This document shows, one piece after another, positions 978-62,399 of a DNA stretch of 64,000 nucleotides. The first letter of the stretch is position 1. Each line of letters opens with the position of its first letter. Under the pieces are notes generated by a model that saw nothing but the letters and a program-made list of their open reading frames with translations, was not told where the DNA came from and made no database searches. Origin of the DNA: Gymnothorax reevesii (taxonomy: Eukaryota > Chordata > Actinopteri > Anguilliformes > Muraenidae). The stretch spans positions 6,840,395-6,904,394 of the forward strand of contig CM056584.1 of the NCBI GenBank assembly GCA_029721435.1. The letters run 5' to 3'. Position numbers and translations under genes: made by a program.

Positions 978-1025
978 TGGCCCCTGCGCAAGGATGACAT
1001 GCAATTTTGTGAAGCGTTCCATATT
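978..1025 (+). pseudogene. U6 snRNA 3'-half fragment, copy U1
   Basis: These 48 nt match the 3' half of metazoan U6 snRNA as I remember it, at 45 of 48 positions and without gaps. GCGCAAGGATGACA (U6 internal stem-loop region) and GTGAAGCGTTCCATATT (3' end) are intact. Two of the three differences are C-to-T at CpG sites. The 5' half, with the ACAGAGA box and the 5' stem-loop, is missing: the P array runs straight into TGGCCCC. The terminal T-run is replaced by GTCTACC, so this cannot be a working U6 gene. Sense is on the + strand. Confidence 0.9.
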
Positions 1026-1260
1026 GTCTACCTTTAAGAAAGTTATGTTCACATTATGGATCCTAAACCCTAAAAGAATACCCGAACCCTAAATGCAAAC
1101 AATAGCCCTGACCCTAAAACAAACTGTCAACTGAAAACATATACAAGAAGCTTAGATCCAGACCTTAACTCTAACCCCCCCCGCAGCCATGACTCTGAAG
1201 CTGGGAAATAACAGAAATGACTATCCCAAAAAACCTTAAATTGCAACGCTACAGGCACCT
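1026..1260 (+). repeat. J spacer, copy J1
   Basis: Unique-looking spacer between the U6 fragment and the R array. It carries a GGATCC site just after the U6 end, CCCTAA-like words around 1052-1155, an 8-C tract near 1176-1183 followed by GCAGCC, and from about 1189 a segment aligning with the R monomer in a diverged form (CTCTGAAGCTGGGAAAT against CTCTAAAGCTGGAAAAT). J1 shares AAGCTTAGATCC and CCTTTAAGAAAG with J8, which marks them as one subfamily. Confidence 0.85.
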
Positions 1261-4200
1261 TACCCCTAAACCCTAACCCCTAATCACTTACCTATATGTC
1301 GTAACCCTAACTCTAAAGCTGGAAAATTGCATAAATCGCAAACCCCAAAATCGAAAAGGGGAACGCTACTGACCCCTAACCCTGATGTCCGAATCCTTAA
1401 ACCCTAACCCCTAATCACTTACCCATATGTCGTAACCCTAACTCTAAAGCTGGAAAATTGCATAAATCGCGAACCCCAAAATCGAAAAATGGAACGCTAC
1501 TGCCCCATAACCCCTATGCCCGAATCCCTAAACCCTAATCACTTACCCATATGTCGTAACCCTAACTCTAAAGCTGGAAAATTGCATAAATCGCAAACCC
1601 CAAAATCGAAAAGTGGAACGCGACTGAGCCCTTACCCATATGTCGTAACCCTAACTCTAAAGCTGTAAAATTGCATAAATCGCAAACCCCAAAATCGAAA
1701 AGGGGAACGCTACTGACCCCTAACCCCTATGTCCGAATCCTTAAACCCTAACCCCTAATCACTTACCCATATGTCGTAACCCTAACTCTAAAGCTGGAAA
1801 ATTGCATAAATCGCGAACCCCAAAATCGAAAAGTGGAACGCTACTGCCCCACAACCCCTATGCCCGAATCCCTAAACCCTAATCACTTACCCATATGTCG
1901 TAACCCTAACTCTAAAGCTGGAAAATTGCATAAATCGCAAACCCCAAAATGGAAAAGTGGAACGCGACTGAGCCCTTACCCATATGTCGTAACCCTAACT
2001 CTAAAGCTGTAAAATTGCATAAATCGCAAACCCCAAAATCGAAAAGGGGAATGCTACTGACCCCTTACTCCTATGTCTGAATCCTTAAACCCTAACCCCT
2101 AATCACTTACCCATATGTCGTTACCCTAACTCTAAAGCTGGAAAATTGCATAAATCGCGAACCCCAAAATCAAAAAGTGGAACGCTACTGACCCCTAACC
2201 CCTATGTCCGAATCCCTAAACCCTAATCACTTACCCATATGTCGTAACCCTAACTCTAAAGCTGGAAAATTGCATAAATCGCGAACCCCAAAATCGAAAA
2301 GTGGAACGGTACTGACCCCTAACCCCTATGTCCGAATCCTTAAACCGTAACCCCTAATCACTTACCCATATGTCGTAACCCTAACTCTAAAGCTGGAAAA
2401 TTGCATAAATCGCAAACCCCAAAATCGAAAAGGGGAACGCTACTGACCCCTAACCCCTATGTCCGAATCCTTAAACCGTAACCCCTAATCACTTACCCAT
2501 ATGTCGTAACCCTAACTCTAAAGCTGGAAAATTGCATAAATCGCAAACCCCAAAATCGAAAAGGGGAACGCTACTGACCCCTAACCCCTATGTCCGAATC
2601 CTTAAACCCTAACCCCTAATCACTTACCCATATGTCGTAACCCTAACTCTAAAGCTGGAAAATTGCATAAATCGCAAACCCCAAAATCGAAAAGTGGAAC
2701 GCTACTGTCCCATAACCCCTATGCCCGAATCCCTAAACCCTAATCACTTACCCATATGTCGTAACCCTAACTCTAAAGCTGGAAAATTGCATAAATCGCG
2801 AACCCCAAAATCGAAAAGTGGAACGCGACTGAGCCCTTACCCATATGTCGTAACCCTAACTCTAAAGCTGGAAAATTGCATTAATCGCAAACCCCAAAAT
2901 CAAAACGTGGAACGCGACTGACCCCTGACCCATATGTCGTAACCCTAACTCTAAAGCTGGAAAATTGCATAAATCGCGAACCCCAAAATCGAAAAGTGGA
3001 ACGATACTGACCCCTAACCCCTATGTCCGAATCCCTAAACCCTAATCACTTACCCATATGTCGTAACCCTAACTCTAAAGCTGGAAAATTGCATAAATCG
3101 CGAACCCCAAAATCGAAAAGTGGAACACTACTGACCCCTAACCCCGATTTCCGAATCCCTAAACCCTAATCACTTACCCATATGTCGTAACCCTAACTCT
3201 AAAGCTGGAAAATTGCATAAATCGCGAACCCCAAAATCGAAAAGTGGAACGCTACTGACCCCTAACCCCTATGTCCGAATCCTTAAACCGTAACCCCTAA
3301 TCACTTACCCATATGTCGTAACCCTAACTCTAAAGCTGGAAAATTGCATAAATCGCGAACCCCAAAATCGAAAAGTGGAACGCTACTGCCCCATAACCCC
3401 TATGCCCGAATCGCTAAACCCTAATCACTTACCCATATGTCGTAACCCTAACTCTAATGCTGGAAAATTGCATAAATTGCAAACCCCAAAATCGAAAAGT
3501 GGAACGCTACTGACCCCTAACCCCTATGTCCGAATTCTTCAACCCTCACCCCTAATCACTTACCCATATGTCGTAACCCTAACTCTAAAGCTGGAAAATT
3601 GCATAAATCGCGAACCACAAAATCGAAAAGTGGAACGCTACTGCCCCATAACCCCTATGCCCGAATCCCTAAACCCTAATCACTTACCCATATGTCGTAA
3701 CCCTAACTCTAAAGCTGGAAAATTGCATAAATCGCGAACCCCAAAATCGAAAAGGGGAACGATACTGACCCCTGACCCATATGTCGTAACCCTAACTCTA
3801 AAGCTGGAAAATTGCATAAATCGCGAACCCCAAAATCGAAAAGTGGAAGGCTACTGCCCCACAACCCCTATGCCCGAATCCCTAAACCCTAAACACTTAC
3901 CCATATGTCGTAACCCTAACTCTAAAGCTGGAAAATTGCATAAATCGCAAACCCCAAAATCGAAAAGTGGAACCCGACTGAGCCCTTACCCATATGTCGT
4001 AACCCTAACTCTAAAGCTGGAAAATTGCATAAATCGCAAACCCCAAAATCGAAAAGGGGAACGCTGCTGACCCCTAACCCCTATGTCCGAATCCTTAAAC
4101 CCTAACCCCTAATCACTTACCCATATGTCGTAACCCTAACTCTAAAGCTGGAAAATTGCATAAATCGCAAACCCCAAAATCGAAAAGGTAAAGGCTACTG

Positions 4201-4821
4201 ACCCCTAACCCCTATGTCCGAATCCTTAAACCCTAACCCCTAATCACTTACCCATATGTCGTAACCCTAACTTTAAAGCTGGAAAATTGCATAAATCGCG
4301 AACCCCAAAATCGAAAAGTGGAACGCTACTGACCCCTAACCCCTATGTCCGAATTTCTAAACCCTAATCACTTACCCATATGTCGTAACCCTAACTCTAA
4401 AGCTGGAAAATTGCATAAATCTCGAACCCCAAAATCGAAAAGTGGAACGCGACTGCCCCATAACCCCTATGCCTGAATCCCTAAACCCTAATCACTTACC
4501 CATATGTCGTAACCCTAACTCTAAAGCTGGAAAAATGCATAAATCGCAAACCCCAAAATCGAAAAGTGGAACGCGACTGAGCCCTTACCCATATGTCGTA
4601 ACCCTAACTCTAAATCTGGAAAATTGAATTAATCGCAAACCCCAAAATCAAAAAGTGGAACGCGACTGACCCCTGAATCAAATGTCGTAACCCTAACTCT
4701 AAAGCTGGAAAATTGCATAAATCGCGAACCCCAAAATCGAAAAGTGGAACGATACTGACCCCTTACTCATATGCCCGAATCCCTATGCCCTAATCCCTAA
4801 ACCCTAACCCTATCTCTAAAG
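1261..4821 (+). repeat. R satellite array R1 (30 monomers)
   Basis: I placed 30 monomers by the anchor ATATGTCG (first at 1294, last, degenerate, at 4680). Every spacing is exactly 89, 124 or 131 bp. The core of each monomer holds CTCTAAAGCTGGAAAATTGC, CCCCAAAATCGAAAAGTGG and GGAACGCTACTG. The first six spacings after 1294 run 131-124-89-131-124-89, a 344-bp higher-order repeat. This is the longest R array in the window. Open frames of 60-230 codons here (for example 3375-4070) follow the repeat and start at GTG; I do not regard them as genes. Confidence 0.95.
4774..4808 (+). repeat. Heptamer exit block of R1
   Basis: Five contiguous heptamers of the form CCCTAAN (first CCCGAAT, then CCCTATG, last CCCTAAC) close the array. 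They are followed by CCTATCTCTAAAGTTACCC, where P2 starts. This is degenerate telomere-like sequence, too short and too impure to be a telomere. Confidence 0.85.
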
Positions 4822-7800
4822 TTACCCTTACCTTTTTGCCCTTACCCTTTTGCCCTTTTACCCTTACCCATTTACCCTTTAACCCTTACCCATTTATCCT
4901 TTTACCTTTACCCTTTTGCCCTTACCCATTTACCCTCTTGCCCTTCTACCCTTCCCCATTTACCCTTTTACCCTTACCCATTTATCCCTTTACCTCTCCC
5001 CTTTTGCCCTTACCCATTTACCCTCTTACCCTTTCCCATTTACCCTTTTACCCTTACCCTTTTACCCTTACCCATTTACCCTTCTACCCTTACCCTTTTA
5101 CCCTTCTACCCTTACCCTTTTACCCTTACACCCTTCACCTTTTACCCTTTTACCCTTACCCATTTACCCTTCTACCCTTACCCTTTTACCCTTCTACCCT
5201 TACCCATGTACCCTTTTACCCTTCCCCATTTACCCTTCTACCCATACCCATTTACCCTTTTACCTTTACCCATTTACCCTTACCCATTTACCCTTTTTAC
5301 CCTTTTACCCTTACCCATTTACCCTTTTACCCTTACCCTTTTACCCTTTTACCTTTACCCTTTTACCTTTACCTTTTTATCCTTACCCATTTACCCTTTT
5401 ACCCTGACCCATTTACCCTTCTACCCTTACCCATTCACCGTTTTACCCTTACCCTTTTACCTTTACCCTTTTACCTTTACCCTTTTACCCTTACCCTTTT
5501 ACCCTTTTACCTTTACCCTTTTACCCTTTTATCCTTACCCATTTACCCTTCTACCCTTTTACCCTTACCCATTTACCCTTCTACCCTTACCCATTCACCG
5601 TTTTACCCTTACCCTTTTACCTTTACCCATTTACCCTTACCCCTTTACCCTTTTACCCTTACCCTTTTACCCGTACCCTTTTACCCTTACCCATTTACCC
5701 TTTTACCCTTACCCATTTACCCTTCTACCCTTACCCATTTACCCTTACCCATTTACCCCTTTACCCTTACCCATTTACCCTTTTACCCTTACCCTTTTAC
5801 CCTTACCCATTTACCCTTTTACCCATTTACCCAATTACCCTTTACCCATTTACCCATTTACCTTTTTACCCTTACCCATTTACCCTTTTACCCTTTTACC
5901 CATTTACCCTTTTACCCTTACCCGTTTACCCTTTTACCCTTACCCATTTACCCTTCTACCCTGACCCATTTACCCATCTACCCTTACCCATTTACCCTTC
6001 TACACTTACCCTTTTACCCTTTTACCTTTACCCTTTTACCCTTTTACCCTTACCCATTTACCCTTCTACCCTTTGACCCTTACTCATTTACCCTTCTACC
6101 CTTACCCTGTTACCCTTTTACCTTTACCCTTTTACCCTTACCCTTTTACCCTTTTACCCTTACCCATTTACCCTTTTACCCATTTACCCTTTTACCCATT
6201 TACCCATTTACCCTTTTACCCTTACCCATTTACCCTTTTACCCTTTTACCCATTTACCCTTTTACCCTTACCCATTTAACCTTTTACCCTAACCCATTTA
6301 CCCTTCTACACTTACCCATTTACCCTTCTACCCTTACCCATTTACCCGTCTACCCTTACCCATTTACCCTTTTACCCATTTACCCATTTACCCTTTTACT
6401 CTTTTACCCATTTACCCTTACCGATTTACCCTTTTACCCATTTACCCATTTACCCTTTTACCCTTACCCATTTACCCTTCTACCCTTACCCATTTACCCT
6501 TCTACCCTTACCCATTTACCCTTCTACCCTTACCCATTTACCCTTTTACACTTACCCATTTACCCTTTTACCCTGACCCATTTACCCTTTTACCCTTACC
6601 CATTTACCCTTTTACCCTTTTACCCTTACCCATTTACCCTTTTACCCTTTCCCATTTACCCTTTTACCCTTACCCATTTACCCTTTTATCCATTTACCCT
6701 TTTACCCATTTACCTTTACCCTTTTACCCTTACCCATTTACCCTTTTACCCTTACCCTTTTACCCGTACCCTTTTACCCTTACCCATTTACCCTTTTACC
6801 CTTACCCATTTACCCTTTTACCCTTACCCATTTACCCTTTTACCCTTACCCATTTACCCTTTTACCCTTACCCTTTTACCCTTACCCATTTACCCTTTTT
6901 ACCCTTACCCATTTACCCTTTTACCCATACCCTTTTATCCTTTTTCCCGTACCCTTATACCCGTACCCTTTTACCCTTTCCCATTTACCCTTTTACCCTT
7001 ACCCTTTTATCCTTTTACCCTTACCCATTTATCCTTTTACCCTTACCCTTTTACCCTTACCCATTTACCCTTTTACCCTTACCCTTTTACCCTTACCCAT
7101 TTACCCTTTTTACCCTTACCCATTTACCCTTTTACCCATACCCTTTTACCCTTTTTCCCGTACCCTTATACCCGCACCCTTTTACCCTTTCCCATTTACC
7201 CTTTTTCCCTTACCCTTTTACCCTTTTACCCTTACCCATTTATCCTTTTACCCTTTCCCTTTTTCCCTTACCCATTTACCCTTTTACCCTTACCCTTTTA
7301 CCCTTACCCATTTACCCTTTTACCCTTACCCTTTTACCCTTTTACCTTTACCCTTTTATCCTTACCCATTTACCCTTCTACCCTTTTACCCTTACCCATT
7401 TACCCTTCTACCCTTACCCATTCACCGTTTTACCCTTACCCTTTTACCCTTTTACCTTTACCCATTTACCCTTACCCCTTTACCCTTTTACCCTTACCCT
7501 TTTATCCTTACCCTTTTACTCTTACCCATTTACCCTTTTCCCCTTACCCATTTACCCTTCTACCCTTACACATTTACCTTTCTACCCTTACCCGTTTACC
7601 CTTCTACCCTTTTACCCTTACACCCTTCACCTTTTACCCCAACCCGTTTACCCTTTTACCCGTACCCTTTTACCCTTACCCATTTACCCTTTTACCCTTA
7701 CCCATTTACCCTTTTACCCTTACCCTTTTACCCTTACCCATTTACCCTTCTACCCTTACCCATTTACCTTTACCCTTTTACCCTTACCCATTTACCCTTT

Positions 7801-10109
7801 TACCCTTTCCCATTTACCCTTTTACCCTTCCCTTTTACCCTTACCCATTTACCCTTCTACCCTTACCCTTTCACCCTTCTACCCTTTCCCTTTTACCCTT
7901 ACACCCTTCACCTTTTACCCTTTTACCCTTACCCATTTACCCTTCTACCCTTACCCTTTTACCCTTCTACCCTTACCCATTTACCCTTTTACCCTTCCCC
8001 ATTTACCCTTCTACCCCTACCCATTTACCCTTTTACCTTTACCCATTTACCCTTTTACCCTTACCCTTTTACCCTTTTACCTTTACCCTTTTACCTTTAC
8101 CCTTTTACCCTTACCCATTTACCCTTTTACCCTTACCCATTTACCCTTCTACCCTTACCCATTCACCGTTTTACCCTTACCCTTTTACCCTTACCCTTTT
8201 ACCCTTACCCTTTTACCCTTTTACCTTTACCCTTTTACCCTTTTATCCTTACCCATTTACCCTTCTACCCTTTTACCCTTACCCATTTACCCTTCTACCC
8301 TTACCCATTCACCGTTTTACCCTTACCCTTTCACCCTTTTACCTTTACCCATTTACCCTTACCCCTTTACCCTTTTACCCTTACCCTTTTACCCGTACCC
8401 TTTTACCCTTACCCATTTACCCTTTTACCCTTACCCATTTACCCTTCTACACTTACCCATTTACCCTTCTACCCTTACCCATTTACCCTTTTACCCATTT
8501 ACCCATTTACCCTTTTACCCTTTTACCCAGTTACCCTTACCCATTTACCCTTTTACCCATTTACCCATTTACCCTTCTACCCTTACCCATTTACCCTTCT
8601 ACCCTTACCCATTTACCCTTTTACACTTTCCCATTTACCCTTTTACCCTTACCCATTTACCCTTTTACCCATTTACCCTTTTACCCATTTACCTTTACCC
8701 TTTTACCCTTACCCATTTACCCTTTTACCCGTACCCTTTTACCCTTACCCATTTACCCTTTTACCCTTACCCATTTACCCTTTTACCCTTACCCTTTTAC
8801 CCTTACCCATTTACCCTTTTTACCCTTACCCATTTACCCTTTTTACCCTTACCCATTTACCCTTTTACCCTTACCCTTTTACCCTTTTTCCCGTACCCTT
8901 ATACCCGTACCCTTTTACCCTTTCCCATTTACCCTTACCCTTTTACCCTTACCCATTTATCCTTTTACCCTTACCCTTTTACCCTTACCCATTTACCCTT
9001 TTACCCTTACCCATTTCCCCTTTTACCCTTACCCTTTTACCCTTACCCATTTACCCTTTTTACCCTTACCCATTTACCCTTCTACCCTTACCCATTTACC
9101 CTTCTACCCTTACCCATTTACCCCTACACCCTTACCCTTTTACCCTTACACCCTTACCCTTTTTACCCTTACCCACTTACCCTTCTACCCTTACCCATTT
9201 ACCCTTCTACCCTTACCTGTTTACCCTTCTACCCTTTTACCCTTACACCCTTCACCTTTTACCCTTACCCGTTTACCCTTTTACCCGTACCCTTTTACCC
9301 TTACCCATTTACCCTTACCCATTTACCCTTTTACCCTCACCCATTTACCCTTTACCCTTACCCTTTTACCCTTTTTCCTGTACCCATTTACCCTTACCCA
9401 TTTACCCTTTTACCCTTACCCATTTACCCTTTTACCCTCACCCATTTACCCTTTACCCTTACCCTTTTACCCTTTTACCCGTACCCATTTACCCTTTTAC
9501 CCTTACCCATTTACCCTTTCACCCTCACCCATTTACCCTTTTACCCTTACCCTTTTACCCTTTTTTCCCGTACCCTTTAACCCTTACCCTTTTACCCTTT
9601 TACCCTGACCCATTTACCCTTTTACCCCTACCCATTTACCCTTTTACTCTTACCCATTTACCCTTTTACCCTTACCCTTTTACCCTTACCCATTTACCCT
9701 TTTTACCCTTACCCATTTACCCTTTTACCCTTACACTTTTACCCTTTTTCCCGTACCCTTTTACCCGTACCCTTTTACCCTTACCCATTTACCCTCTGAC
9801 CCTTACCCATTTACCCTTTTACCCTTACCCTTTTACCCTTTTACCCTTACCCATTTACCCTTTTACCCTTACCCATTTACCCTTTTACCCTTACCCTTTT
9901 ACCCTTTTACCCTTACCCATTTACCCTTTTTCCCTTACCCTTTTACCCTTCTACCCTTCCCGTTTCCCCTTCTACCCTTACCCGTTTACCCTTTTAACCT
10001 AACCCATTTACCCTTCTACCCTTTTACCCTTACACCCTTCACCTTTTACCCTTACCCGTTTACCCTTTTACCCTTCCCCATTTACCCTTTTACCCTTTTA
10101 TCCTTACCC

Positions 10110-10790
10110 CCTTCACCTTTTACCCTTTCCCCTTTCCCTTTTTCCCTCTTTCCCTTTTACCCTTTCCCTTTTTCCCTTTTGCCCTTTTGCCCTTTCCCTT
10201 TTGCCCTTTCCCTTTTTTTTCCCTTTTGCCCTTTTGCCCTTTCCCTTTTGCCCTTTCCCTTTTTTCCCCTTTTGCCCTTTTGCCCTTTCCCTTTTGCCCT
10301 TTCCCTTTTTTCCCCTTTTGCCCTTTTGCCCTTTCCCTTTTGCCCTTTCCCTTTTTTTCCCCTTTTGCCCTTTCCCTTTTTTCCCCTTTTGCCTTTTCCC
10401 TTTTTTCCCTTTTGCCCTTTCCCTTTTTCCCCTTTTGCCCTTTCCCTTTTTCCCCTTTTGCCCTTTCCCCTTTACCCTTTTGCCCTTTTCCCCTTTCCCT
10501 TTTTCCCCTTTCCCCTTTTCCCTTTTGCCCTTTTCCCCTTTCCCTTTTTCCCCTTTTCCCTTTTGTCCTTTTCCCCTTTCTTTTTTTCCCTTTGCCCTTT
10601 TTCCCCTTTCCCTTTTACCCTTTCCCTTTTTCCCCTTTCCCTTTTTCCCTTTGCCCTTTTTCCCCTTTCCCTTTTACCCTTTCCCTTTTACCCTTTGCCC
10701 TTTTTCCCCTTTCCCTTTTACCCTTTCCCTTTTACCCTTCCCTTTTTCCCTTTTGCCCTTTCCCTTTTTCCCTTACCCATTTACCCTTTT
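10110..10790 (+). repeat. Polypyrimidine block in P2
   Basis: Nearly A-free run of CCCTTT, CCCTTTTT and CCCTTTTG words, with single G interruptions. Mirror-like polypyrimidine of this kind can form triplex DNA (known property; not shown here). It sits inside P2, far from the U6 fragment, and 22-mer array resumes after it. Confidence 0.85.
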
Positions 10791-12009
10791 TCCCGTACCC
10801 TTTTACCCGTACCCTTTTACCTGTACCCTTTTACCCTGACCCATTTACCCTTTTACCCTTACACCCTTACCCTTTTACCCTTACCCATTTACCCTTTTTA
10901 CCTTTACCCATTTACCCATTTACCCTTTTACCCTTACCCATTTATCCTTTTACCCATTTACCCATTTACCCTTACCCATTTACCCTTTTACCCTTACCCT
11001 TTACCCTTTTACCCTTACCCATTTACCCTTTTACCCATTTACCCTTTTACCCTTACCCATTTACCTTTCTACCCTTACGCATTTACCCTTCTACCCTTAC
11101 CCTTTTACCCTTACCCATTTACCCTTTCACCCTTACCCATTTACCCTTTTACCCATTTACCCTTACCCATTTTCCCTTCTACCCTTACCCATTTACCCTT
11201 CTACCCTTACCCATTTACCCTTCTACCCTTACCCATTTACCCTTCTACCCTTACCCATTTACCCTTTTACCCTTACCCATTCACCCTTCTACCCTTACCC
11301 ATCTACCCTTTTACCCTTACCCATTTACCCTTTTACGCTTACCCATTTACCCTTTTACCCTTACCCATTTACCCTTTTACCCATTTACCCTTACCCATTT
11401 TCCCTTCTACCCTTACCCATTTTCCCTTCTACCCTTACCCATTTACCCTTCTACCCTTACCCATTTACCCTTTTTACCCTTACCCATTTACCCTTCTACC
11501 CTTACCCATTTACCCTTCTACCCTTACCCATTTACCCTTCTACCCATACCCTTTTACCCTTCTACCCTTACCCTTTTACCCTTACACCCTTACCCTTTTA
11601 CCCTTACCCATTTACCCTTTTACCCTTACCCATTTACCCTTTTACCCTTACCCATTTACCCTTCTACCCTTACCCATTTGCCCTTACCCATTTTACCCTT
11701 TTTACCCTTACCCATTTACCCTTTTACCCATACCCTTTTACCCTTCTACCCATACCCTTTTACCCTTACACCCTTACCCTTCTACCCTTACCCATTTACC
11801 CTTTTTACCCTTACCCATTCACCCTTCTACCCTTACCCATTTACCCTTTTACCCTTACCCATTTACCCTTCTACCCTTACCCGTTTACCCTTTTACCCTT
11901 CCCCGTTTACCCTTCTACCCTTTTACACTTACACCCTTCACCTTTTACCCTTACCCGTTTACCCTTTTACCCTTTTATCCTTACCCCCCTCACCTTTTAG
12001 CCTTACCCT

Positions 12010-12460
12010 TTTACCCTTTCCCCTTTCCCTTTTTCCCTTTCCCTTTTTCCCTTTTGCCCTTTTGCCCTTTCCCTTTTGCCCTTTCCCTTTTTTTCCCCTT
12101 TTGCCCTTTCCCTTTTTTCCCTTTTGCCCTTTCCCTTTTTCCCTTATGCCCTTTCCCTTTTTCCCTTTTGCCCTTTTCCCCTTTGCCCTTTTTCCCTTTG
12201 CCCTTTTACCCTTTTCCCTTTGTCCTTTTACCTTTTTCCTTTGCCCTTTTTCCCTTTTACCCTTTCCCTTTTACCCTTCCCTTTTTCCCTTTTGCCCTTT
12301 CCCTTTTCCCCTTTTGCCCTTTCCCCTTTTCTCTTTTCCCCTTTTACCCTTCCTTTTACCTTTTCCATTTCCCTTTTTCCATTTCCCTTTTCCTTTTGCC
12401 CTTTCGCCCTTTCCCTTTTACCCTTTCCCCTTTTACCCTTTTTCCTTTTTGCCCTTTTAT
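12010..12460 (+). repeat. Polypyrimidine block before copy U2
   Basis: Second polypyrimidine block of P2. After it come about 400 bp of mixed words with ACACCCTTCACC motifs, and then the U6 fragment. The same order (22-mer, mixed, polypyrimidine, short mixed tail, U6) is seen in P3, P4 and P5. Confidence 0.85.
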
Positions 12461-12867
12461 CCTTACACCCTTCACCTTTTACCCTTACCCTAACACCCTT
12501 CACCTTTTACCCTTACCCTTTTACCCTTACCCTTTTACCTTTACCCATTTACCCTTGCCCTTTTTCCTTTTCCCTTTTTCCCCTTTCCCTTTTGCCCTTT
12601 TATCCTTACACCCTTACCCTTTTACCTTTACCCATTTACCCTTTCCCTTTTTCCTTTTCCCTTTTTCCCCTTTCCCTTTTGCCCTTTTACCCTTTCCCTT
12701 ACCTTTTTCCCTTTTACCCTTACCCATTTACCCTTTTACCCTTACCCTTTTATCCTGACACCCTTCACCTATTTCCCTTTTACCCTTACCCATTTACCCT
12801 TTTTTCCCCTTTTTCCCCTTACCCTTACCCTTACACCCTCACCCTTTTGCCCTTACCCTTTTTCTCC

Positions 12868-12915
12868 TGGCCCCTGCGCAAGGATGACATGCAATTTTGT
12901 GAAGCGTTCCATATT
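12868..12915 (+). pseudogene. U6 snRNA 3'-half fragment, copy U2
   Basis: Same 48 nt as copy U1, no gaps, same truncation point and same three differences from metazoan U6. It is followed by CTACCTTAAAGAAAG rather than the CTACCTTTAAGAAAG of U1. Confidence 0.9.
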
Positions 12916-13150
12916 GTCTACCTTAAAGAAAGTTATGTTCACATTATGGATCCTAAACCCTAAAAGAATACCCTAACCCTAAATGCAAACAATAGCCCTG
13001 ACCCTAAAACAAACTGTAAACTGAAAACATATACAAGAAGCATTGATCCAGACCTTAACTCTAACCCCCCCCCAAGCCATGACTCTGAAGCTGGGAAATA
13101 ACAGAAATGACTATCCCAAAAAACCTTAAATTGCAACGCTACAGGCACCT
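12916..13150 (+). repeat. J spacer, copy J2
   Basis: Carries ACCCTAACCC where J1 has ACCCGAACCC, a 9-C tract followed by AAGCC, and GCATTGATCC where J1 has GCTTAGATCC. The minus strand is open for 62 codons (12960-13148) from a GTG. The same frame survives in J4 and, with three fewer C residues, in J9, but is broken in the other copies, so I do not call it a gene. Confidence 0.85.
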
Positions 13151-15417
13151 TACCCCTAAACCCTAACCCCTAATCACTTACCTATATGTCGTAACCCTAA
13201 CTCTAAAGCTGGAAAATTGCATAAATCGCGAACCCCAAAATCGAAAAGTGGAACGCTACTAACCCCTAACCCCTATGTCCGAATCCCTAAACCCTAATCA
13301 CTTACCCATATGTCGTAACCCTAACTCTAAAGCTGGAAAATTGCATAAATCGCGAACCCCAAAATCGAAAAGTGGAACGCTACTGACCCCTAACCCCTAT
13401 GTCCGAATCCTTAAACCGTAACCCCTTATCACTTACCCATATGTCGTAACCCTAACTCTAAAGCTGGAAAATTGCATAAATCGCGAACCCCAAAATCGAA
13501 AAGTGGAACGCTACTGCCCCATAACCCCTATGCCCGAATCCCTAAACCCTAATCACTTACCCATATGTCGTAACCCTAACTCTAAAGCTGGAAAATTGCA
13601 TAAATCGCGAACCCCAAAATCGAAAAGTGGAACGCTACTGCCCCAAAACCCCTATGCCCGAATCCCTGAACCCTAATCACTTACCCATATGTCCTAACCC
13701 TAACTCTAAAGCTGGTAAATTGCATAAATCGCAAATCCCAAAATCGAAAAGGGGAACGCTACTGACCCCTAACCCCTATGTTCGAATCCTTAAACCGTAA
13801 CCCCTAATCACTTTCCCATATGTCGTAACCCTAACTCTAAAGCTGGAAAATTGCATAAATCGCGAACCCCAAAATCGAAAAGTGGAACGCTACTGCCCCA
13901 CAACCCCTATGCCCGAATCCCTAAACCCTAATCACTTACCCATGTCGTAACCCTAACTCTAAAGCTGGAAAATTGCATAAATCGCGAACCCCAAAATCGA
14001 AAAGTGGAACGCTACTGACCCCTAACCCGTATGTCCGAATCCCTAAACCCTAATCACTTACCCATATGTCGTAACCCTAACTCTAAAGCTGGAAAATTGC
14101 ATAAATCGCGAACCCCAAAATCGAAAAGTGGAACGCTACTGACCCCTAACCCCTATGTCCGAATCCTTAAACCGTAACCCCTCATCACTTACCCATATGT
14201 CGTAACCCTAACTCTAAAGCTGGAAAATTGCATAAATCGCGAACCCCAAAATCGAAAAGTGGACAGTACTGCCCCATAACCCCTATGCCCGAATCCCTAA
14301 ACCCTAATCACTTACCCATATGTCGTAACCCTAACTCTAAAGCTGGAAAATTGCATAAATCGCAAACCCCAAAATCGAAAAGTGGAACGCGACTGAGCCC
14401 TTACCCATATGTCGTAACCCTAACTCTAAAGCTGGAAAATTGCATAAATCGCAAACCCCAAAATCAAAAAGTGGAACGCGACTGACCCCTGACCCATATG
14501 TCGTAACCCTAACTCTAAAGCTGGAAAATTGCATAAATTGCGAACCCCAAAATCAAAAAGTGGAACGATACTGACCCCTAACCCCTATGTCCGAATCCCT
14601 AAACCCTAATCACTTACCCATATGTCGTAACCCTAACTCTAAAGCTGGAAAATTGCATAAATCGCGAACCCCAAAATCGAAAAGTGGAACGCTACTGACC
14701 CCTAACCCCTATGTCCGAATCCTTAAACCCTAACCCCTAATCACTTACCCATATGTCGTAACCCTAACTCTAAAGCTGGAAAATTGCATAAATCGCGAAC
14801 CCCAAAATCGAAAAGTGGAACGCTACTGCCCCATAACCCCTATGCCCGAATCCCTAAACCCTAATCACTTACCCATATGTCGTAACCCTAACTCTAAAGC
14901 TGGAAAATTGCATAAATCGCAAACCCCAAAATCGAAAAGTGGAACGCGACTGAGCCCTTACCCATATGTCGTAACCCTAACTCTAAAGCTGGAAAATTGC
15001 ATAAATCGCAAACCCAAAAATCGAAAAGGGGAATGCTACTGACCCCTAACCCCTATGTCCGAATCCTTAAACCCTCACCCCTAATCACTTACCCATATGT
15101 CGTAACCCTAACTCTAAAGCTGGAAAATTGCATCAATCGCAAACCCCAAAATCAAAAAGTGGAACGCGACTGAGCCCTTATCCATATGTCGTAACCCTAA
15201 CTCGGAAGCTGGAAAATTGCATTAATCGCAAACCCCAAAATCAAAAAGTGGAACGCGACTGACCCCCTACCCATATGTCGTAACCCTAACTCGGAAGCTG
15301 GAAAATTGCATAAATCGCGAACCCCAAAATCGAAAAGTGGAACGATGCTGACCCCTTACCCATATGCCCGAATCCCTATGCCCTAATCCCTAAACCCTAA
15401 CCCTATCTCTAAAGTTA
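13151..15417 (+). repeat. R satellite array R2
   Basis: About 18-19 monomers of the 89/124/131-bp family. The first monomer carries the edge variant ACCTATATGTCG. One monomer near 13943 has lost two bases of the anchor (CATGTCG), and the unit near 14263 has a one-base loss (GTGGACAGTACTG). Two late monomers read AACTCGGAAGC in place of AACTCTAAAGC (about 15200 and 15290), a private change shared by neighbours, as expected from local unequal exchange. Confidence 0.93.
15367..15401 (+). repeat. Heptamer exit block of R2
   Basis: Five CCCTAAN-type heptamers, same order as at the end of R1, followed by the same CTCTAAAGTTACCC transition into P3. Confidence 0.85.
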
Positions 15418-22561: not shown

Positions 22562-22609
22562 TGGCCCCTGCGCAAGGATGACATGCAATTTTGTGAAGCG
22601 TTCCATATT
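22562..22609 (+). pseudogene. U6 snRNA 3'-half fragment, copy U3
   Basis: 48 nt, identical in extent to the other copies, with the two CpG-to-TpG changes and the A-to-T change before TTTGTGAAG. Confidence 0.9.
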
Positions 22610-30488: not shown

Positions 30489-30536
30489 TGGCCCCTGCGC
30501 AAGGATGACATGCAATTTTGTGAAGCGTTCCATATT
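30489..30536 (+). pseudogene. U6 snRNA 3'-half fragment, copy U4
   Basis: Same 48 nt and same differences as copy U3, its partner in the tandem duplication. Confidence 0.9.
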
Positions 30537-36821: not shown

Positions 36822-36825
36822 CTCC

Positions 36826-36873
36826 TGGCCCCTGCGCAAGGATGACATGCAATTTTGTGAAGCGTTCCATATT
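36826..36873 (+). pseudogene. U6 snRNA 3'-half fragment, copy U5
   Basis: 48 nt without gaps, consensus version. Confidence 0.9.
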
Positions 36874-40050: not shown

Positions 40051-40861
40051 CCCTAAATTGCATAAATCGCAAACCCCAAAATCGAAAAGTGGAACGCGAC
40101 TGAGCCCTTACCCATATGTCGTAACCCTAACTCTAAAGCTGTAAAATTGCATAAATCGCAAACCCCAAAATCGAAAAGGGGAATGCTACTGACCCCTAAC
40201 CCCTATGTCCGAATCCTTAAACCCTAACCCCTAATCACAAACCCATATGTCGTAACCCTAACTCTAAAGCTGGAAAATTGCATAAATCGCGAACCCCAAA
40301 ATCGAAAAGTGGAACGCTACTGACCCCTAACCCCTATGTCCGAATCCTGAAACCGTAACCCTAATCACTTACCCATATGTCGTAACCCTAACTCTAAAGC
40401 TGGAAAATTGCATAAATCGCGAACCCCAAAATCAAAGTGGAACGCTACTGCCCCATAACCCCTATGCCCGAATCCCTAAACCCTAATCACTTACCCATAT
40501 GTCGTAACCCTAACTCTAAAGCTGGAAAATTGCATAAATCGCAAACCCCAAAATCGAAAAGGGGAACGCTACTGACCCCTAACCCCTATGTCCGAATCCT
40601 TAAACCCTCACCCCTAATCACTTACCCATATGTCGTAACCCTAACTCTAAAGCTGGAAAATTGCATAAATCGCAAACCCCAAAATCAAAAAGTGGAACGC
40701 GACTGAGCCCTTACCCATATGTCGTAACCCTAACTCTAAAGCTGGAAAATTGCATAAATCGCGAACCCCAAAATCGAAAAGTGGAACGATACTGACCCCT
40801 TACCCATATGCCCGAATCCCTATGCCCTAATCCCTAAACCCTTACCATATCTCTAAACTTA
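40051..40861 (+). repeat. R satellite array R5b, entered without U6 or J
   Basis: Begins inside a monomer at AAATTGCATAAATCGC. Six anchors follow (40114 to 40717) with spacings 131, 130, 122, 131 and 89. The 122 comes from a short loss in the A-tract near 40434. It ends with the usual heptamer block at 40811-40845, with CCTTACCATATC in place of CCTAACCCTATC. Confidence 0.92.
40811..40845 (+). repeat. Heptamer exit block of R5b
   Basis: CCCTAAN-type heptamers, the last one altered to CCCTTAC. Confidence 0.8.
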
Positions 40862-41344
40862 CCCTTACCTTTTTGCACTTACCCTTTTGCCCTTTTACCC
40901 TTACCCATTTACCCTTTTACCCTTACCCATTTACCCTTTTACCCTTACCCATTTACCCTTTTACCCTTACCCCTTTACCCTTTTACCCTTACCCATTTTA
41001 CCCTTTTACCCTTACCCATTTACCCTTTTACCCTTACCCTTCTACCCCTACCCATTTACCCTTTTACCCTAACCCATTTACCCTTACCCATTTTACCCTT
41101 TTTACCCTTACCCATTTACTCTTACCCATTTTACCCTTTTTACCCTTTCCCATTTACCCTTTTTACCCTTACCCATTTACCCTTCTACCAGTACCCATTT
41201 ACCCTTCTACCCTTACCCATTTACCCTTCTACCCTTCCCCTTTTACCCTTACACCCTTACCCTTTTACCCTTACCCATTTACCCTTCTACCCCTACCCAT
41301 TTACCCTTTTACCCTTACCCATTTACCCTTACCCATTTTACCCT

Positions 41345-43708: not shown

Positions 43709-43756
43709 TGGCCCCTGCGCAAGGATGACATGCAATTTTGTGAAGCGTTCCATATT
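43709..43756 (+). pseudogene. U6 snRNA 3'-half fragment, copy U6
   Basis: 48 nt without gaps. The flank differs: CTACCTTAATGAAAGGTCTG where other copies have AAAGAAAGTTATG. Confidence 0.9.
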
Positions 43757-52929: not shown

Positions 52930-53330
52930 CTTACCCATTTACCCTTTTATCCTTACCCACTTACCCTCTTACCCTTACCCATTTACCCTTTTACCCTTAC
53001 CCTTTTGCCCTTTCCCTTTTTCCCATTTATCCTTTCCCCTTTTCCCTTTTTCCTTTTTCCCTTTTACCCTTACCCTTTTACCCGTACCCTTTTACCCTTA
53101 CCCATTTACCCTTTTACCCTAACCCATTTACCCTTTTACCCTTACCCATTTACCCTTTTACCCTTACCCATTTACCCTTCTACCCTTACCCATTTACCCT
53201 TTTATCCTTACCCATTTACCCTCTTACCCTTACCCATTTACCCTTTTACCCTTATTCTTTTGCCCTTTCCCTTTTTCCCATTTATCCTTTCCCCTTTTCC
53301 CTTTTTCCTTTTTCCCTTTTACCCTTTCCC
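52930..53330 (+). repeat. Tandem duplication, 255-bp offset
   Basis: TTATCCTTACCC followed by CTCTTACCC and then a CCCATTTATCC polypyrimidine patch occurs twice, with CTCTTACCC at 52966 and 53221. A third copy is in P9 (CTCTTACCC at 54952). Confidence 0.75.
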
Positions 53331-53658
53331 TTTTTCCCATTTATCCTTTCCCTTTTTCCCTTTTTCCCTTTTGCCCTTTTACCCTTTCCCTTTTACCCTT
53401 TTTCCCTTTTTCCCTTTTGCCCTTTCCCTTTTACCCTTTTACCCTTACCCATTTACCCTTTTACCCTTTTACCTTTACACTTTTACCCTTACCCATTCAC
53501 CCTTTTACCCTTACCCTTTTACCCTTTTACCCGTACCCTTTTACCCTTACCCATTTACCCTTTTACCCTTTTACCCTTACCCATTTACCCTTTTTTCCCC
53601 TTTTTCCCCTTACCCTTACCCTTACACCCTCACCCTTTTGCCCTTACCCTTTTTCTCC

Positions 53659-53706
53659 TGGCCCCTGCGCAAGGATGACATGCAATTTTGTGAAGCGTTC
53701 CATATT
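53659..53706 (+). pseudogene. U6 snRNA 3'-half fragment, copy U7
   Basis: Complete 48-nt fragment although the unit behind it is broken. The following CTACCTTTAAGAAAG groups it with U1 and U8. Confidence 0.9.
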
Positions 53707-53756
53707 GTCTACCTTTAAGAAAGTTATGTTCACATTATGGATCCTCAACCCTAAAA
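53707..53756 (+). repeat. Truncated J spacer, copy J7
   Basis: Only the first 50 bp remain. The sequence reads GGATCCTCAACCCTAAAA and then changes directly into CCCTTACCC words of P9. The rest of J and the whole R array are missing. The join lies in CCCTAAAA/CCC, where J and P sequences look alike, so a short-homology deletion is a simple explanation. Confidence 0.85.
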
Positions 53757-55456: not shown

Positions 55457-55460
55457 CTCC

Positions 55461-55508
55461 TGGCCCCTGCGCAAGGATGACATGCAATTTTGTGAAGCGT
55501 TCCATATT
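55461..55508 (+). pseudogene. U6 snRNA 3'-half fragment, copy U8
   Basis: 48 nt without gaps, consensus version; flank CTACCTTTAAGAAAG. Confidence 0.9.
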
Positions 55509-55741
55509 GTCTACCTTTAAGAAAGTTATGTTCACATTATGGATCCTAAACCCTAAAAGAATACCCGAACCCTAAATGCAAACAATAGCCCTGACCCTAA
55601 AACAAACTGTAAACTGAAAACATACAAGAAGCTTAGATCCAGACCTTAACTCTAACCCCCCCTGCAGCCATGACTCTGAAGCTGGGAAATAACAGAAATG
55701 ACTATCCCAAAAAACCTTAAATTGCAACGCTACAGGCACCT
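55509..55741 (+). repeat. J spacer, copy J8
   Basis: AAGCTTAGATCC and a 7-C tract followed by TGCAGCC, close to J1. A two-base loss gives AACATACAAGAAG in place of AACATATACAAGAAG. Confidence 0.85.
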
Positions 55742-56441
55742 TACCCCTGAACCCTAACCCCTAATCACTTACCTATATGTCGTAACCCTAACTCTAAAGC
55801 TGGAAAATTGCATAAATCGCGAACTCCAAAATCGAAAAGTGGAACGCTACTGCCCCACAACCCCTATGCCCGAATCCCTAAACCCTAATCACTTACCCAT
55901 ATGTCGTAACCCTAACTCTAAAGCTGGAAAATTGCATAAATCGCAAACCCCAAAATCGAAAAGTGGAACGCGACTGAGCCCTTACCCATATGTCGTAACC
56001 ATAACTCTAAAGCTGGAAAATTGCATAAATCGCAAACCCCAAAATCAAAAAGGGGAACGCTACTGACCCCTAACCCCTATGTCCGAATCCTTCAACCCTA
56101 ACCCCTAATCACTTACCCATATGTCGTAACCCTAACTCAAAAGCTGGAAAAATGCATAAATTGCAAACCCCAAAATCGAAAAGTGGAACGCGACTGAGCC
56201 CTTACCCATATGTCGTAACCCTAACTCTAAAGCTGGAAAATTGCATTAATCGCAAACCCCAAAATCAAAAAGTGGAACGCGACTGACCCCTGACTCAAAT
56301 GTCGTAACCCTAACTCTAAAGCTGGAAAATTGCATAAATCGCGAACCCCAAAATCGAAAAGTGGAACGATTCTGACCCCTTACCCATATGCCCGAATCCC
56401 TATGGCCTAATCCCTAAACCCTAACCCTATCTCTAAAGTTA
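55742..56441 (+). repeat. R satellite array R8 (6 monomers)
   Basis: Anchors at 55775, 55899, 55988, 56119, 56208 and 56297 (last one CAAATGTCG); spacings 124, 89, 131, 89, 89. The last monomer reads GACTCAAATGTCG, like the last monomer of R1 (GAATCAAATGTCG at 4675). This is further evidence that units 1 and 8 share ancestry. Confidence 0.93.
56391..56425 (+). repeat. Heptamer exit block of R8
   Basis: Five heptamers, with TATGGCC in place of TATGCCC. Confidence 0.82.
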
Positions 56442-57679
56442 CCCTTACCTTTTTGCCCTTACCCTTTTGCCCTTTTACCCTTACCCATTTACCCTTTTAC
56501 CCTTACCCATTTACCCTTTTACCCTTACCCTTTTACCTTTTTACCTTTACCCTTACCCATTTACCCTTTTACCCTTACCCATTTACCCTTTTACCCTTAC
56601 CCATTTACCCTTTTACCCTAACCCATTTACCCTTTTACCCTTACCCATTTACCCTTTTAACCTAACCCATTTACCCTTCTACCCTTTTACCCTTACACCC
56701 TTCACCTTTTACCCTTACCCGTTTACCCTTTTACCCGTACCCGTTTACCCTTTTACCCGTACCCTTTTACCCTTACCCATTTACCCTTTTACCCTTACCC
56801 ATTTACCCTTTTACCCTTACCCATATACCCTTTTACCCTTACCCTTTTACCCTTACCCATTTACCCTTCTACCCTTACCCTTTTACCCTTCTACCCTTAC
56901 CCTTTTACCCTTACACCCTTCACCTTTTACCCTTTTACCCTTACCCATTTACCCTTTTACCCTTACCCATTTACCCTTCTACCCTTACCCTTTTACCCTT
57001 CTACCCTTACCCATTTACCCTTTTACCCTTTCCCTTTTACCCTTACCCATTTACCCTTCTACCCCTACCCATTTACCTTTACCCTTTTACCCTTACCCAT
57101 TTACCCTTTTACTCTTACCCTTTTACCCTTACCCTTTTACCCTTTTACTTTTACCCATTTACCCTTTTACCCTTACCCTTTTACCCTTACCCATTTACCC
57201 TTTTACCCTGACCCATTCACCGTTTTACCCTTACCCTTTTACCTTTACCCATTTACCCTTACCCCTTTACCCTTTTACCCTTACCCTTTTACCCTTCTAC
57301 CCTTACCCATTTACCCTTTTACCCTTTAACCTTTACCCTTTTACCCTTACCCATTTACCCTTTTACCCTTACCCTTTTACCCGTACCCATTTACCCTTTT
57401 ACCCTTACCCATTTACCCTTTTACCCATACCCTTTAACCCATTTACCCTTTTACCCTTCCCCATTTACCCTTTCACCCTTACCCATTTACCCTTTTTACG
57501 CTTACCCATTTACCCTTCTACCCTTACTCTTTTACCCTTTTAACCTAACCCATTTACCCTTCTACCCTTTTACCCTTACACCCTTCACCTTTTACCCTTA
57601 CCCTTTTACCCGTACCCTTTTACCCTTACCCATTTACCCTTTTACCCTTTTATCCTTACCCCCTTCACCTTTTACCCTT

Positions 57680-58140
57680 ACCCTTTTACCCTTTCCCCCT
57701 TCCCTTTTTTCCCTTTCCCTTTTTCCCTTTTCCTTTTTCCCTTTTCTCTTTTTCCCTTTTCCCTTTTTCCCTTTTTCCCTCTTTCCCTTTTACCCTTACC
57801 CTTTTTCCCTTTTGCCCTTTCCCTTTTGCCCTTTCCCTTTTTTTTCCCTTTTGCCCTTTCCCTTTTTTTCCCCTTTTGCCCTTTCCCTTTTTTCCCCTTT
57901 GCCCTTTCCCTTTTTTCCCTTTTGCCCTATCCCTTTTCCCTTTCCCTTTTCCCTTTTGCCCTTTTCCCCTTTCCCTTTTTCCCCCTTTTCCCCTTTCCCT
58001 TTTTCCCCTTTTCCCCTTTCCCTTTTTCCCTTTGCCCTTTCACCCTTTCCCTGTTACCCTTTCCCTTTTGCCCTTTCCCTTTTTCCCTTTTGCCCTTTCC
58101 CTTTTTCCCTTTTGCCCTTACCCTTTTACCCTTTACCTTT
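57680..58140 (+). repeat. Polypyrimidine block in P10 (left)
   Basis: CCCTTTTGCCC and CCCTTTTTCCC words with a run of eight or more T near 57838; similar to the start of the block at 10110. Confidence 0.82.
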
Positions 58141-60469
58141 TTCCCTTTTACCCTTACCCATTTACCCTTTTACCCTTACCCATTTACCCTTTTACCCTTA
58201 CACCCTTACCCTTTTACCCTTACCCTTTTACCCTTTTACCCTTACCCTTTTACCCTTACCCTTTTACCCTTTTATCCTTACCCATTTACCCTTTTACCCT
58301 TACCCATTCACCGTTTTACCCTTACCCATTTACCCTTTTACCCATTTACCCTTTTACCCTTACCCATTTACCCTTTTACCCTTACCCTTTTACCTTTTCC
58401 CTTTTACCCTTACCCATTTACCCTTTTACCCTTACCCATTTACCTTTACCCATTTACCCTTCCCTATTTACCCTTTTACCCTTACCCTTTTACCCTTTTA
58501 CTCGTACCCTTTTACCCTTACCCATTTACCCTTTTACCCTTACCCATTTACCCTTCTACCCTTACCCATTTACCTTTTTACCCTTACCCATTTACCCTTT
58601 TACCCTTACCCATTTACCCTTTTACCCTTACCCATTTACCCTTTTACCCATTTACCCTTTTACCCTTACCCATTTACCCTTTTACCCTTACCCATTTACC
58701 CTTCTACCCTTACCCATTTACCCTTTTACCCTTACCCTTTTGCCCTTTTACCCTTACCCATTTACCCTTCTACCCTTTTATCCTTACCCCCTTCACCTTT
58801 TACCCTTACCCTTTTACCCTTTCCTTTTTTCCCATTTATCCTTACCCCTTTTTCCCTTTTCCCTTTTATCCTTTCCCTTTTTCCCTTTTGCCCTTTTACC
58901 CTTTCCCTTTTTCCCTCTCTCCCTTTTTCCCTTTTGCCCTTTCCCTTTTACCCTTACCCATTTACCCTTTTACCCTTACCCATTTACCCTTTTACCCTTA
59001 CCCTTTTAGCTTTTCCCTTTTACCCTTACCCATTTACCCTTTTACCGTTACCCATTTACCTTTACCCATTTACCCTTCCCTATTTACCCTTTTACCCTTA
59101 CCCTTTTACCCTTTTACTCGTACCCTTTTACCCTTACCCATTTACCCCTTTTATACCCTTACCCATTTACCCTTCTACCCTTACCCATTTACCTTTTTAC
59201 CCTTACCCATTTACCCTTTTACCCTTACCCATTTACCCTTTTACCCATTTACCCTTTTACCCTTACCCATTTACCCTTTTACCCTTACCCATTTACCCTT
59301 CTACCCTTACCCATTTACCCTTTTACCCTTACCCTTTTGCCCTTTTACCCTTACCCATTTACCCTTTTACCCTTACCCATTTACCCTTCTACCCTTTTAT
59401 CCTTACCCCCTTCACCTTTTACCCTTACCCTTTTACCCTTTCCTTTTTTCCCATTTATCCTTACCCCTTTTCCCTTTTCCCTTTTATCCTTTCCCTTTTT
59501 CTCTTTTTCCCTTTTGCCCTTTTACCCTTTCCCTTTTACCCTCTTTCCCTTTTTCCCTTTTGCCCTTTCCCTTTTACCCTTACCCTTTTACCCTTTTACC
59601 TTTACCCTTTTACCCTTTTACCCTTACCCTTTTACCCATTTACTCGTACCCTTTTACCCTTTCCCATTTACCCTTTTACCCTTACCCATTTACCCTTCTA
59701 CTCTTACCCATTTACCCTTTCACCCTTACCCATTTACCCTTTTACCCTTATCCTTTTACCCTTTTACCCTTACCCATTTACCCTTTTACCCTTACCCATT
59801 TACCCTTTTACCCTTACCCATTTTCCCATTTACCCTTTTACCCTTACCCATTTACCCTTCTACCCTTACCCATTTACCCTTTTACCCTTACCCATTTACC
59901 CTTTTACTCTTACCCTTTTACCCTTCCCCATTTACCCTTTTACTCTTACCCTTTTACCCTTCCCCATTTACCCTTTTACCCTTACCCATTTACCCTTTTA
60001 CCCTTACCCATTTACCCTTTTACCCTTACCCATTTAGCCTTTTACCCTTACCCATTTACCCTTTTACCCTTACCCATTTACCCTTTTACCCTTTTACCCT
60101 TACCCATTTACCCTTCTACCCTTACCCATTTACCCTTTTACCCTTACCCATTTACCCTTCTACCCTTTTATCCTTACCCCCTTTACCTTTTACCCTTTCC
60201 CTTTTACCCTTTGCCTTTTTCCCATTTATCCTTTCCCCTTTTCCCTTTTTCCCTTTTACCCTTTCCCTTTTTCCCATTTATCCTTTTCCTTTTTCCCTTT
60301 TTCCCTTTTTCCCTTTTACCCTTTCCCTTTTACCCTTTTGCCCTTTCCCTTTTACCCTTTTACCCTTACCCATTTACCATTTTACCCTTACCCATTTACC
60401 CTTTTACCCTTACCCATTTACCCTTTTACCCTTTTACCTTTACCCTTTTACCCTTACCCATTTACCCTT

Positions 60470-61217
60470 TTTCCCGTACCCTTTTACCCTAACCCATTTA
60501 CCCTTTTACCCTTACCCATTTACCCTTTTACCCTTACCCTTTTACCCTTACTCATTTACCCTTTTACCCTTTTACCCTTACCCATTTACCCTTTTACCCT
60601 TACCCATTGACCCTTTTATTCTTACCCATTTACCCTTTTACCCTTACCCATTTACCCTTTAACCCTTACCCATTTACCCTTCTACCCTTTTATCCTTACC
60701 CCCTTCACCTTTTACCCTTACCCTTTTGCCCTTTCCCTTTTTCCCATTTATCCTTTCCCCTTTTCCCTTTTTCCCTTTTCCCTTTTATCCTTTCCCTTTT
60801 TCCCTTTTGCCCTTTTACCCTTTCCCTTTTTCCCTCTCTCCCTTTTTCCCTTACCCATTTACCCTTTTACCCTTTTACCTTTACCCTTTTACCCTTACCC
60901 ATTTACCCTTTTTCCCGTACCCTTTTACCCTAACCCATTTACCCTTTTACCTTTACCCATTTACCCTTTTACCCTTACCCTTTTACCCTTACTCATTTAC
61001 CCTTTTACCCTTTTACCCTTACCCATTTACCCTTTTACCCATTTACCCTTTTACCCTTACCCATTGACCCTTTTATTCTTACCCATTTACCCTTTTACCC
61101 TTACCCATTTACCCTTTAACCCTTACCCATTTACCCTTCTACCCTTTTATCCTTACCCCCTTCACCTTTTACCCTTACCCTTTTGCCCTTTCCCTTTTTC
61201 CCATTTATCCTTTCCCC
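60470..61217 (+). repeat. Tandem duplication, 457-bp offset
   Basis: Two markers repeat at exactly the same offset: CATTGACCCTTTTATTCTTA at 60605 and 61062, and TTTAACCCTTACCC at 60658 and 61115. The copied block includes the CCTTACCCCCTTCACC motif and the polypyrimidine patch after it. Confidence 0.85.
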
Positions 61218-61689
61218 TTTTCCCTTTTTCCTTTTTCCATTTTACCATTTCCCTTTTTCCCATTTATCCTTTCCCCTTTTCCCTTTTTCCCTTTTGCCCT
61301 TTTACCCTTTTTCCCTTTTTCCCTTTTGCCCTTTCCCTTTTACCCTTTTACCCTTACCCATTTACCCTTTTACCCTTTTACTTTTACCCTTTTACCCTTA
61401 CCCATTTACCCTTCTACCCTTACCCATTCACCGTTTTACCCTTACCCTTTTACCTTTACCCATTTACCCTTTTACCTTTACCCATTTACCCTTACCCCTT
61501 TACCCTTTTACCCTTACCCCTTTACCCTTTTACCCATACCCTTTTACCCTTACCCATTTACCCTTTAACCCTTACCCATTTACCCTTTTACCCTTACCCA
61601 TTTACCCTTTTACCCTTACCCATTTACCCTTCTACCCTTACCCATTTACCCTTTTACCCTTACCCATTTACCCTTCTACCCTTACCCTT

Positions 61690-62240
61690 TTACCTTTACC
61701 CATTTACCTTTGCCCTTTTTCCCTTTCCCTTTTTCCATGTCTTTTTCCCTTTTTCCCCTTTCCCTTTTGCCCTTTTACCCTTTCCCTTACCTTTTCCCTT
61801 ACCCTCCCTTTTTCCCCTTTTCCCCTTTCCATTTTTCTCCTTTCCTCTTTTCCCTTTTTCCCTTTTCCCCTTTCCCTTTAATCCTTTCCCTTTTACCCTT
61901 TCCCTTTTACCTTTTCCCTTTTTCCCTTTCCCTTTCCCTTTTTGCCCTTTCCCTTTTGCCCTTTTGCCCTTTCGCCCTTTCCCTTTTGCCCTTTCCCTTT
62001 TACCCTTTCCCCTTTTCCCTTTTAACCTTTTTTCTTTTGCCCTTTTTCCCATTCTCTTTTTCTCTTTTATCCTTACACCCTTCACCTTTTACCCGTACCA
62101 TTTTACCTTTTCCCATTTACCCTTGCCCTTTTTCCCTTTCCCTTTTTCCATGTCCCTTTCCCTTTTTTCCCTTTCCCTTTTGCCCTTTTACCCTTTCCCT
62201 GCCCCTTTTCCCTTTTACCCTTTCCCTTTTTCCCTTTTTT
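61690..62240 (+). repeat. Polypyrimidine block before copy U9
   Basis: Differs from the other U6-proximal blocks by CCATGTC words (61736, 62148) and a TTTTTTACCC tail near 62235, so unit 9 stands apart from units 1-8. Confidence 0.8.
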
Positions 62241-62351
62241 ACCCTTACCCTTTTACTCTTTTTTACCCTTACCCTTTTACCCTTTTTTCGCCTTTTTCCC
62301 TTTTACCCTTACCCCTACACCCTTACCCTTTTGCCCTTACCCTTTTTCCCC

Positions 62352-62399
62352 TGGCCCCTGCGCAAGGATGACATGCAAATTTGTGAAGCGTTTCATATT
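62352..62399 (+). pseudogene. U6 snRNA 3'-half fragment, copy U9
   Basis: 48 nt without gaps. It keeps GCAAATTTGTG, closer to the metazoan U6 GCAAATTCGTG than the GCAATTTTGTG of the other eight copies. It has its own change GCGTTTCATATT. All three differences from U6 are C-to-T. Confidence 0.9.

Follow-up and report, generated by a model that had tools for sequence, protein, structure and literature searches.

A compound satellite in the genome of Gymnothorax reevesii carries, at one kind of junction, a 48-nt piece that by alignment is the 3' half of canonical vertebrate-type U6 small nuclear RNA (snRNA). The window analyzed here is a 64,000-nucleotide stretch of contig CM056584.1 (C12:6840395-6904394; the genome comprises 2.17 Gb in 421 contigs), and it contains nine copies of the piece. 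The copies share the same boundaries and a single constant context, with arrays of a degenerate simple repeat (P) on one side and a constant 38-nt tail on the other, and this arrangement is spread over several contigs. We infer that the capture was RNA-mediated: the piece is probably a 5'-truncated U6 retrocopy, possibly a U6/retrotransposon chimera, that was captured once at the boundary between P and the satellite element J and has since been amplified passively.

All nine 48-mers listed in a sequence-only reading of the window were recovered by a direct check at the same starts, on the + strand and without gaps. Two substitutions distinguish the copy at 62352 from the other eight, which do not differ from one another. 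A 14-nt core of the piece (GCGCAAGGATGACA) matches the window nine times at no more than two mismatches, compared with a mean of 0.02 matches in shuffled sequences. A scan of the window against Rfam at gathering cut-offs returned no matches, whereas a scan of the whole window at E ≤ 0.1 returned nine, every one to the U6 model RF00026 and each at one of the 48-mer sites. Their scores (38.6-38.7 bits; E about 4e-6 in 64 kb) fall below the gathering cut-off of 44 because only half of U6 is present; within a 401-nt stretch the match has an E-value of 2.6e-8. We regarded an algC match on the opposite strand of that stretch as fortuitous (E = 0.34, score below its cut-off). The U6 copies sit on the C-rich strand, and the + strand of the window as a whole is strongly asymmetric (24,503 C vs 2,887 G).

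The piece corresponds to U6 positions 57-104, and its least-changed copies are identical to canonical U6 at 46 of 48 positions (BLAST; the reference sequence is backed by the Rfam alignment). Model and identity together uphold the assignment to the 3' half of U6 that the earlier reading had made, and the significant model alignment over the retained part supports a homologous, U6-derived origin of the sequence. On the right, the least-changed copies end in ATATT, immediately ahead of the terminal T run and some three bases from where the RNA ends; the Rfam alignment extends to the end of the model. On the left, it is truncated: BLAST matches of the satellite copies start at U6 position 57, with P array upstream, and neither the 5' stem-loop nor the ACAGAGA box is present. 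A terminator for RNA polymerase III (at least four T at the 3' end) is also lacking, as the sequence reads CCATATTGTCTACC; truncation and the missing terminator led us to reject a working gene.

We examined 34 copies, on C12, C8 and C148, the three contigs on which flanks were read; two C8 copies lack one base, and the other 32 have no gaps. All 34 depart from canonical U6 at two shared positions, in each case by a C-to-T change at a CpG site. Of the four CpG in the canonical stretch, one more is C-to-T in two of the 34 copies. These changes look like methylation-type decay.

Along the window, P arrays lead through a U6-J junction into arrays of a second satellite, K, which return to P through a uniform K-to-P exit, and the order then repeats (Table 1). 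Marker counts are nine U6 pieces, eight J elements, nine K blocks and nine K-to-P exits. P-type sequence lies upstream of all nine U6 copies, and a U6 piece lies upstream of all eight J elements detected by marker. The sequence-only reading had placed a truncated U6 at the exit of every P array that leads to J; this holds for the eight J elements, but the U6 at 53659 is followed by the tail and a few more bases and then by P again, and it is the one window copy in which J does not come after the tail. Conversely, the K block near 40055 follows P directly: it begins within a monomer, and both U6 and J are missing. The second half of J itself aligns to K (score 34). A long J was recognized in 18 of the 34 examined copies; the remaining copies that were seen aligned have K-type sequence after a short stretch or, at 53659, P.

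Table 1. Representative components of the satellite and all U6-derived pieces in the window (positions in window coordinates).
Feature	Position	Strand	Remarks
P array of degenerate CCCTTTTA/CCCTTA; the window has about eleven	4825..12867	+	approximate limits
Last ~100 nt of P, conserved between the nine junctions, start of the module (copy 2 shown)	12768..12867	+	
Constant 38-nt tail, GTCTACC..GGATCC (copy 2 shown; offset +48..+85 elsewhere)	12916..12953	+	
J element of copy 2, about 200 nt	12954..13155	+	final ~80 nt = divergent K monomer
K array, 89/124/131-bp units, one of nine window blocks	13156..15414	+	approximate limits
K block entered from P within a monomer	40055..40863	+	approximate limits
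U6 3' fragment, copy 1	978..1025	+	48-mer check, Rfam E-value scan
U6 3' fragment, copy 2	12868..12915	+	48-mer check, Rfam E-value scan
U6 3' fragment, copy 3	22562..22609	+	48-mer check, Rfam E-value scan
U6 3' fragment, copy 4	30489..30536	+	48-mer check, Rfam E-value scan
U6 3' fragment, copy 5	36826..36873	+	48-mer check, Rfam E-value scan
U6 3' fragment, copy 6	43709..43756	+	48-mer check, Rfam E-value scan
U6 3' fragment, copy 7 (no J or K, back into P)	53659..53706	+	48-mer check, Rfam E-value scan
U6 3' fragment, copy 8	55461..55508	+	48-mer check, Rfam E-value scan
U6 3' fragment, copy 9 (two substitutions)	62352..62399	+	48-mer check, Rfam E-value scan

Conservation extends beyond the U6 piece. 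Among the nine window copies, pairwise identity over the 100 nt upstream of U6 has a median of 0.97 and does not fall below 0.82. The median drops to 0.80 over the following 100 nt and to 0.72-0.77 more than 200 nt upstream, comparable to the 0.75 of random P windows; the closest pair (22562 and 36826) is still 0.99 identical out to 300 nt. The U6 piece thus lies inside a conserved junction module and not at its edge. On the downstream side, the association is complete in both directions: when copies were sought by the U6 core only, the tail followed U6 in 34 of 34 copies of the fetched satellite loci, and when they were sought by the tail, U6 preceded it in 34 of 34. The shared tail and common flanks agree with the earlier proposal that a single copy was captured at the edge of a simple-repeat array and amplified with it; what that proposal had misplaced is the limit of the amplified unit, which is not bounded by U6, since the module starts about 100 nt upstream in P.

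The same layout recurs in stretches of C12 at 6,643 kb and 6,937 kb; it is also present on C8, with eight copies, and on C148, a short contig with 15. These copy counts come from short U6 patterns (one of 33 rows was not U6 and was left out), so strongly diverged copies would be missed. A search of the host genome with the 86-nt U6-plus-tail sequence, a check that the sequence-only reading had proposed, detected copies of 98-100% identity on seven contigs (C8, C12, C148, C149, C161, C169 and C344) among the 40 of 112 candidates that were scored. An RNA-derived piece thus stands at a constant position in many tandem units, as is characteristic of a satellite with a captured small-RNA sequence. 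A scan of viral contigs for the exact 38-mer gave no matches.

In the scenario that we consider probable, reverse transcription would have started at the 3' end of U6 RNA and stopped early, yielding a retrocopy or a U6/retrotransposon chimera. The product would have been captured once, at the boundary between a P simple-repeat array and the telomere-like J/K satellite, and the resulting junction (about 100 nt of P, the U6 piece, the 38-nt tail and the start of J) would then have spread within and between arrays by ordinary satellite amplification, through unequal exchange and segmental duplication, with the U6 piece carried passively and decaying at its CpG sites. The retained positions, with a right end near the RNA 3' end and a truncated left end, fit reverse transcription from the RNA 3' end, and this pairing of a junction at the RNA 3' end with 5' truncation is as expected of retrocopies and chimeras mediated by long interspersed nuclear elements (LINEs). 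Passive carriage is consistent with the variation between copies: in a set of 19, U6 and tail show mean pairwise differences of 0.029 and 0.030, and in the 32 indel-free copies among the 34 the values are 0.028 for U6 and 0.020 for the tail. We found no good sign of function for the U6 piece.

Several observations weigh against this scenario. Inspection of the printed flanks by eye shows no target-site duplication or poly(A) (a search aimed at them was not made, and the repetitive flanks weaken the test), and retroposition is therefore unproved. A search with canonical U6 gave no gene of the captured form: among the 40 of 201 candidates scored, the highest identity over the full length was 95%. 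As for passive carriage, the nine window copies taken alone differ less in U6 than in the tail (0.009 vs 0.031), and over all copies U6 and tail each vary less than the adjoining 20-36 nt. With both components below their neighbors in variation, the junction module may be under weak constraint. Across the nine window copies, the final 20 nt of P are as uniform as U6 (pairwise difference 0.011).

In a specific form of the same scenario, the tail would be a LINE 3' end; the reverse transcriptase of that LINE would have changed templates to U6 and left a 5'-truncated U6 attached to a short piece of LINE end. This is a possibility that we entertain only tentatively. Precedents come from PMC4476161: in almost all U6-L2 chimeras of platypus, U6 is 5'-truncated and precedes a short stretch of L2, and in 72.5% of 40 the target duplication measures just 1-9 bp. 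The same paper reports U6-RTE chimeras from lizard and, from opossum, a 5'-truncated U6 next to an RTE-like element. The constancy of the tail in all 34 copies is in keeping with such a chimera, as is the alignment of U6 plus tail to K, which is no better than that of shuffled sequence (best local alignment 9.0; shuffled sequence averages 9.15 and reaches 16) and led us to reject K as the source of both. The tail was not, however, found in the fetched non-satellite stretches, a small sample, and no LINE-type 3' microsatellite is evident by eye.

It is rather unlikely that the joint arose at the DNA level, with a fragment of a U6 gene or pseudogene inserted as filler DNA at a break and no RNA step. 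Satellite boundaries are sites of frequent breakage and repair, which counts for such a capture, as does the lack of a target duplication or poly(A) visible by eye. Yet on the right the piece stops about three bases short of where the RNA ends, a position that a random DNA break would rarely produce, and the printed 3' flanks of the fetched non-satellite U6 loci do not start with the tail.

A selected role for the U6 piece, for example as a boundary, a recombination site or part of a satellite transcript, appears very improbable. The occurrence of U6 at all eight P-to-J junctions of the window, the retention of the same tail in every examined copy, and the low variation of U6 relative to the tail in the window and of both relative to their neighbors would fit such a role. 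Over all copies, however, U6 is not conserved beyond the tail, and the piece has neither the 5' ACAGAGA domain nor, where it ends on the 3' side, a T4 terminator. The K block at 40055 lacks U6, the U6 at 53659 leads to neither J nor K, and descent from one junction accounts for the position of U6. That the matches are a chance resemblance or an assembly artifact, for which one could cite the scaffold gap of 100 N beside which the window begins and the Rfam score under the curated cut-off, is scarcely credible, because it is contradicted by E-values of about 4e-6 at nine sites, by the 46/48 identity and by the presence of the module on seven contigs.

To place the piece among the U6 sequences of the same genome, we turn to a search with RF00026, in which 48 of 219,703 first-look candidates were scored and 42 exceeded the cut-off. 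U6 is multicopy and lies partly in 2.3-kb tandem arrays (C12:78.0-78.4 Mb, C375, C73, C179 and others; loci L002-L008, L013 and L044-L055). In the common form, each side of the telestem contains an additional base (GGAATCG and CGTTTCC). Among the 27 pattern-matched rows, to which the telestem count applies (other fetched U6 loci did not match the pattern), 21 have both insertions, two rows that represent one locus on C17 have neither, and four are unreadable at the 3' site. One U6 copy has CGGTTCC, which would allow a U-G pair, and in the predicted fold of the inserted U6 the stem stays in register around a one-by-one mismatch. The satellite piece has the uninserted form (CGTTCC, compared with CGTTTCC in the arrays) and was accordingly rejected as a copy of the present 2.3-kb arrays. 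It may predate the insertion or derive from a gene outside the scored set. It is conceivable, if doubtful, that an RNA-templated joint, made at a satellite boundary and multiplied across contigs, keeps the canonical telestem side from before the multicopy U6 genes acquired their paired one-base insertions.

The surroundings of the arrays add several observations. The window starts at a 100-N scaffold gap with a 161-bp satellite beyond it, and its right-hand P array stops about 3.5 kb beyond the window. On C12 and C8 (L062 9768-9867), a 100-N gap adjoins the array on the side to which the 5' end of the C-rich strand points, and the opposite side of both arrays ends in non-satellite DNA. The C-rich strand of the U6 module flips along C12, from the minus strand at 6643454 to the plus strand at 6841372-6937034, and along C344, from minus at 28-107 kb to plus at 216-220 kb (judged by match strands only). 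The switch has the same sense on both contigs, G-rich and then C-rich, as at a head-to-head junction. The 161-bp satellite occupies 15 of 17 sampled stretches of C12 between 6.0 and 9.0 Mb and switches orientation between 6.6 and 6.7 Mb; it is also present in the first 10 kb of C12. Telomere-type repeats occur near the end of C17 (10 CCCTAACCCTAA on the minus strand) and, like the vertebrate-type U6, point to a vertebrate genome, in which some interspersed repeats look teleost.

The U6/L2, U6/RTE and U6/L1 chimeric retropseudogenes described in PMC4476161 resemble the satellite junction in that U6, often 5'-truncated, is joined at its 3' end to another sequence, for which template switching is proposed there; they differ in being dispersed insertions, whereas here one junction was amplified in a satellite and no target duplication was seen by eye. 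PcP190, a frog satellite derived from 5S rDNA (PMC12191414), likewise shows a small-RNA gene sequence turned into a tandem satellite component, but its 190-bp monomer is itself 5S-derived, in contrast to one 48-nt U6 piece per kilobase-scale unit at one junction kind. The 2.3-kb arrays of the same genome also hold U6 sequence in tandem, but as full-length U6 with other 3' flanks and paired one-base insertions, of which the satellite piece lacks the one on its retained side. Among the papers listed by searches of the open-access literature, judged by title and the start of the abstract, none describes a compound satellite with a U6 piece at a single fixed junction, a result that does not establish its absence from print.

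Sub-threshold U6 matches in repetitive DNA, as this satellite illustrates, need not mean genes. If the capture was a single RNA-mediated event, the U6 piece marks every unit as derived from one junction and could be used to trace the spread of the arrays between chromosomes.

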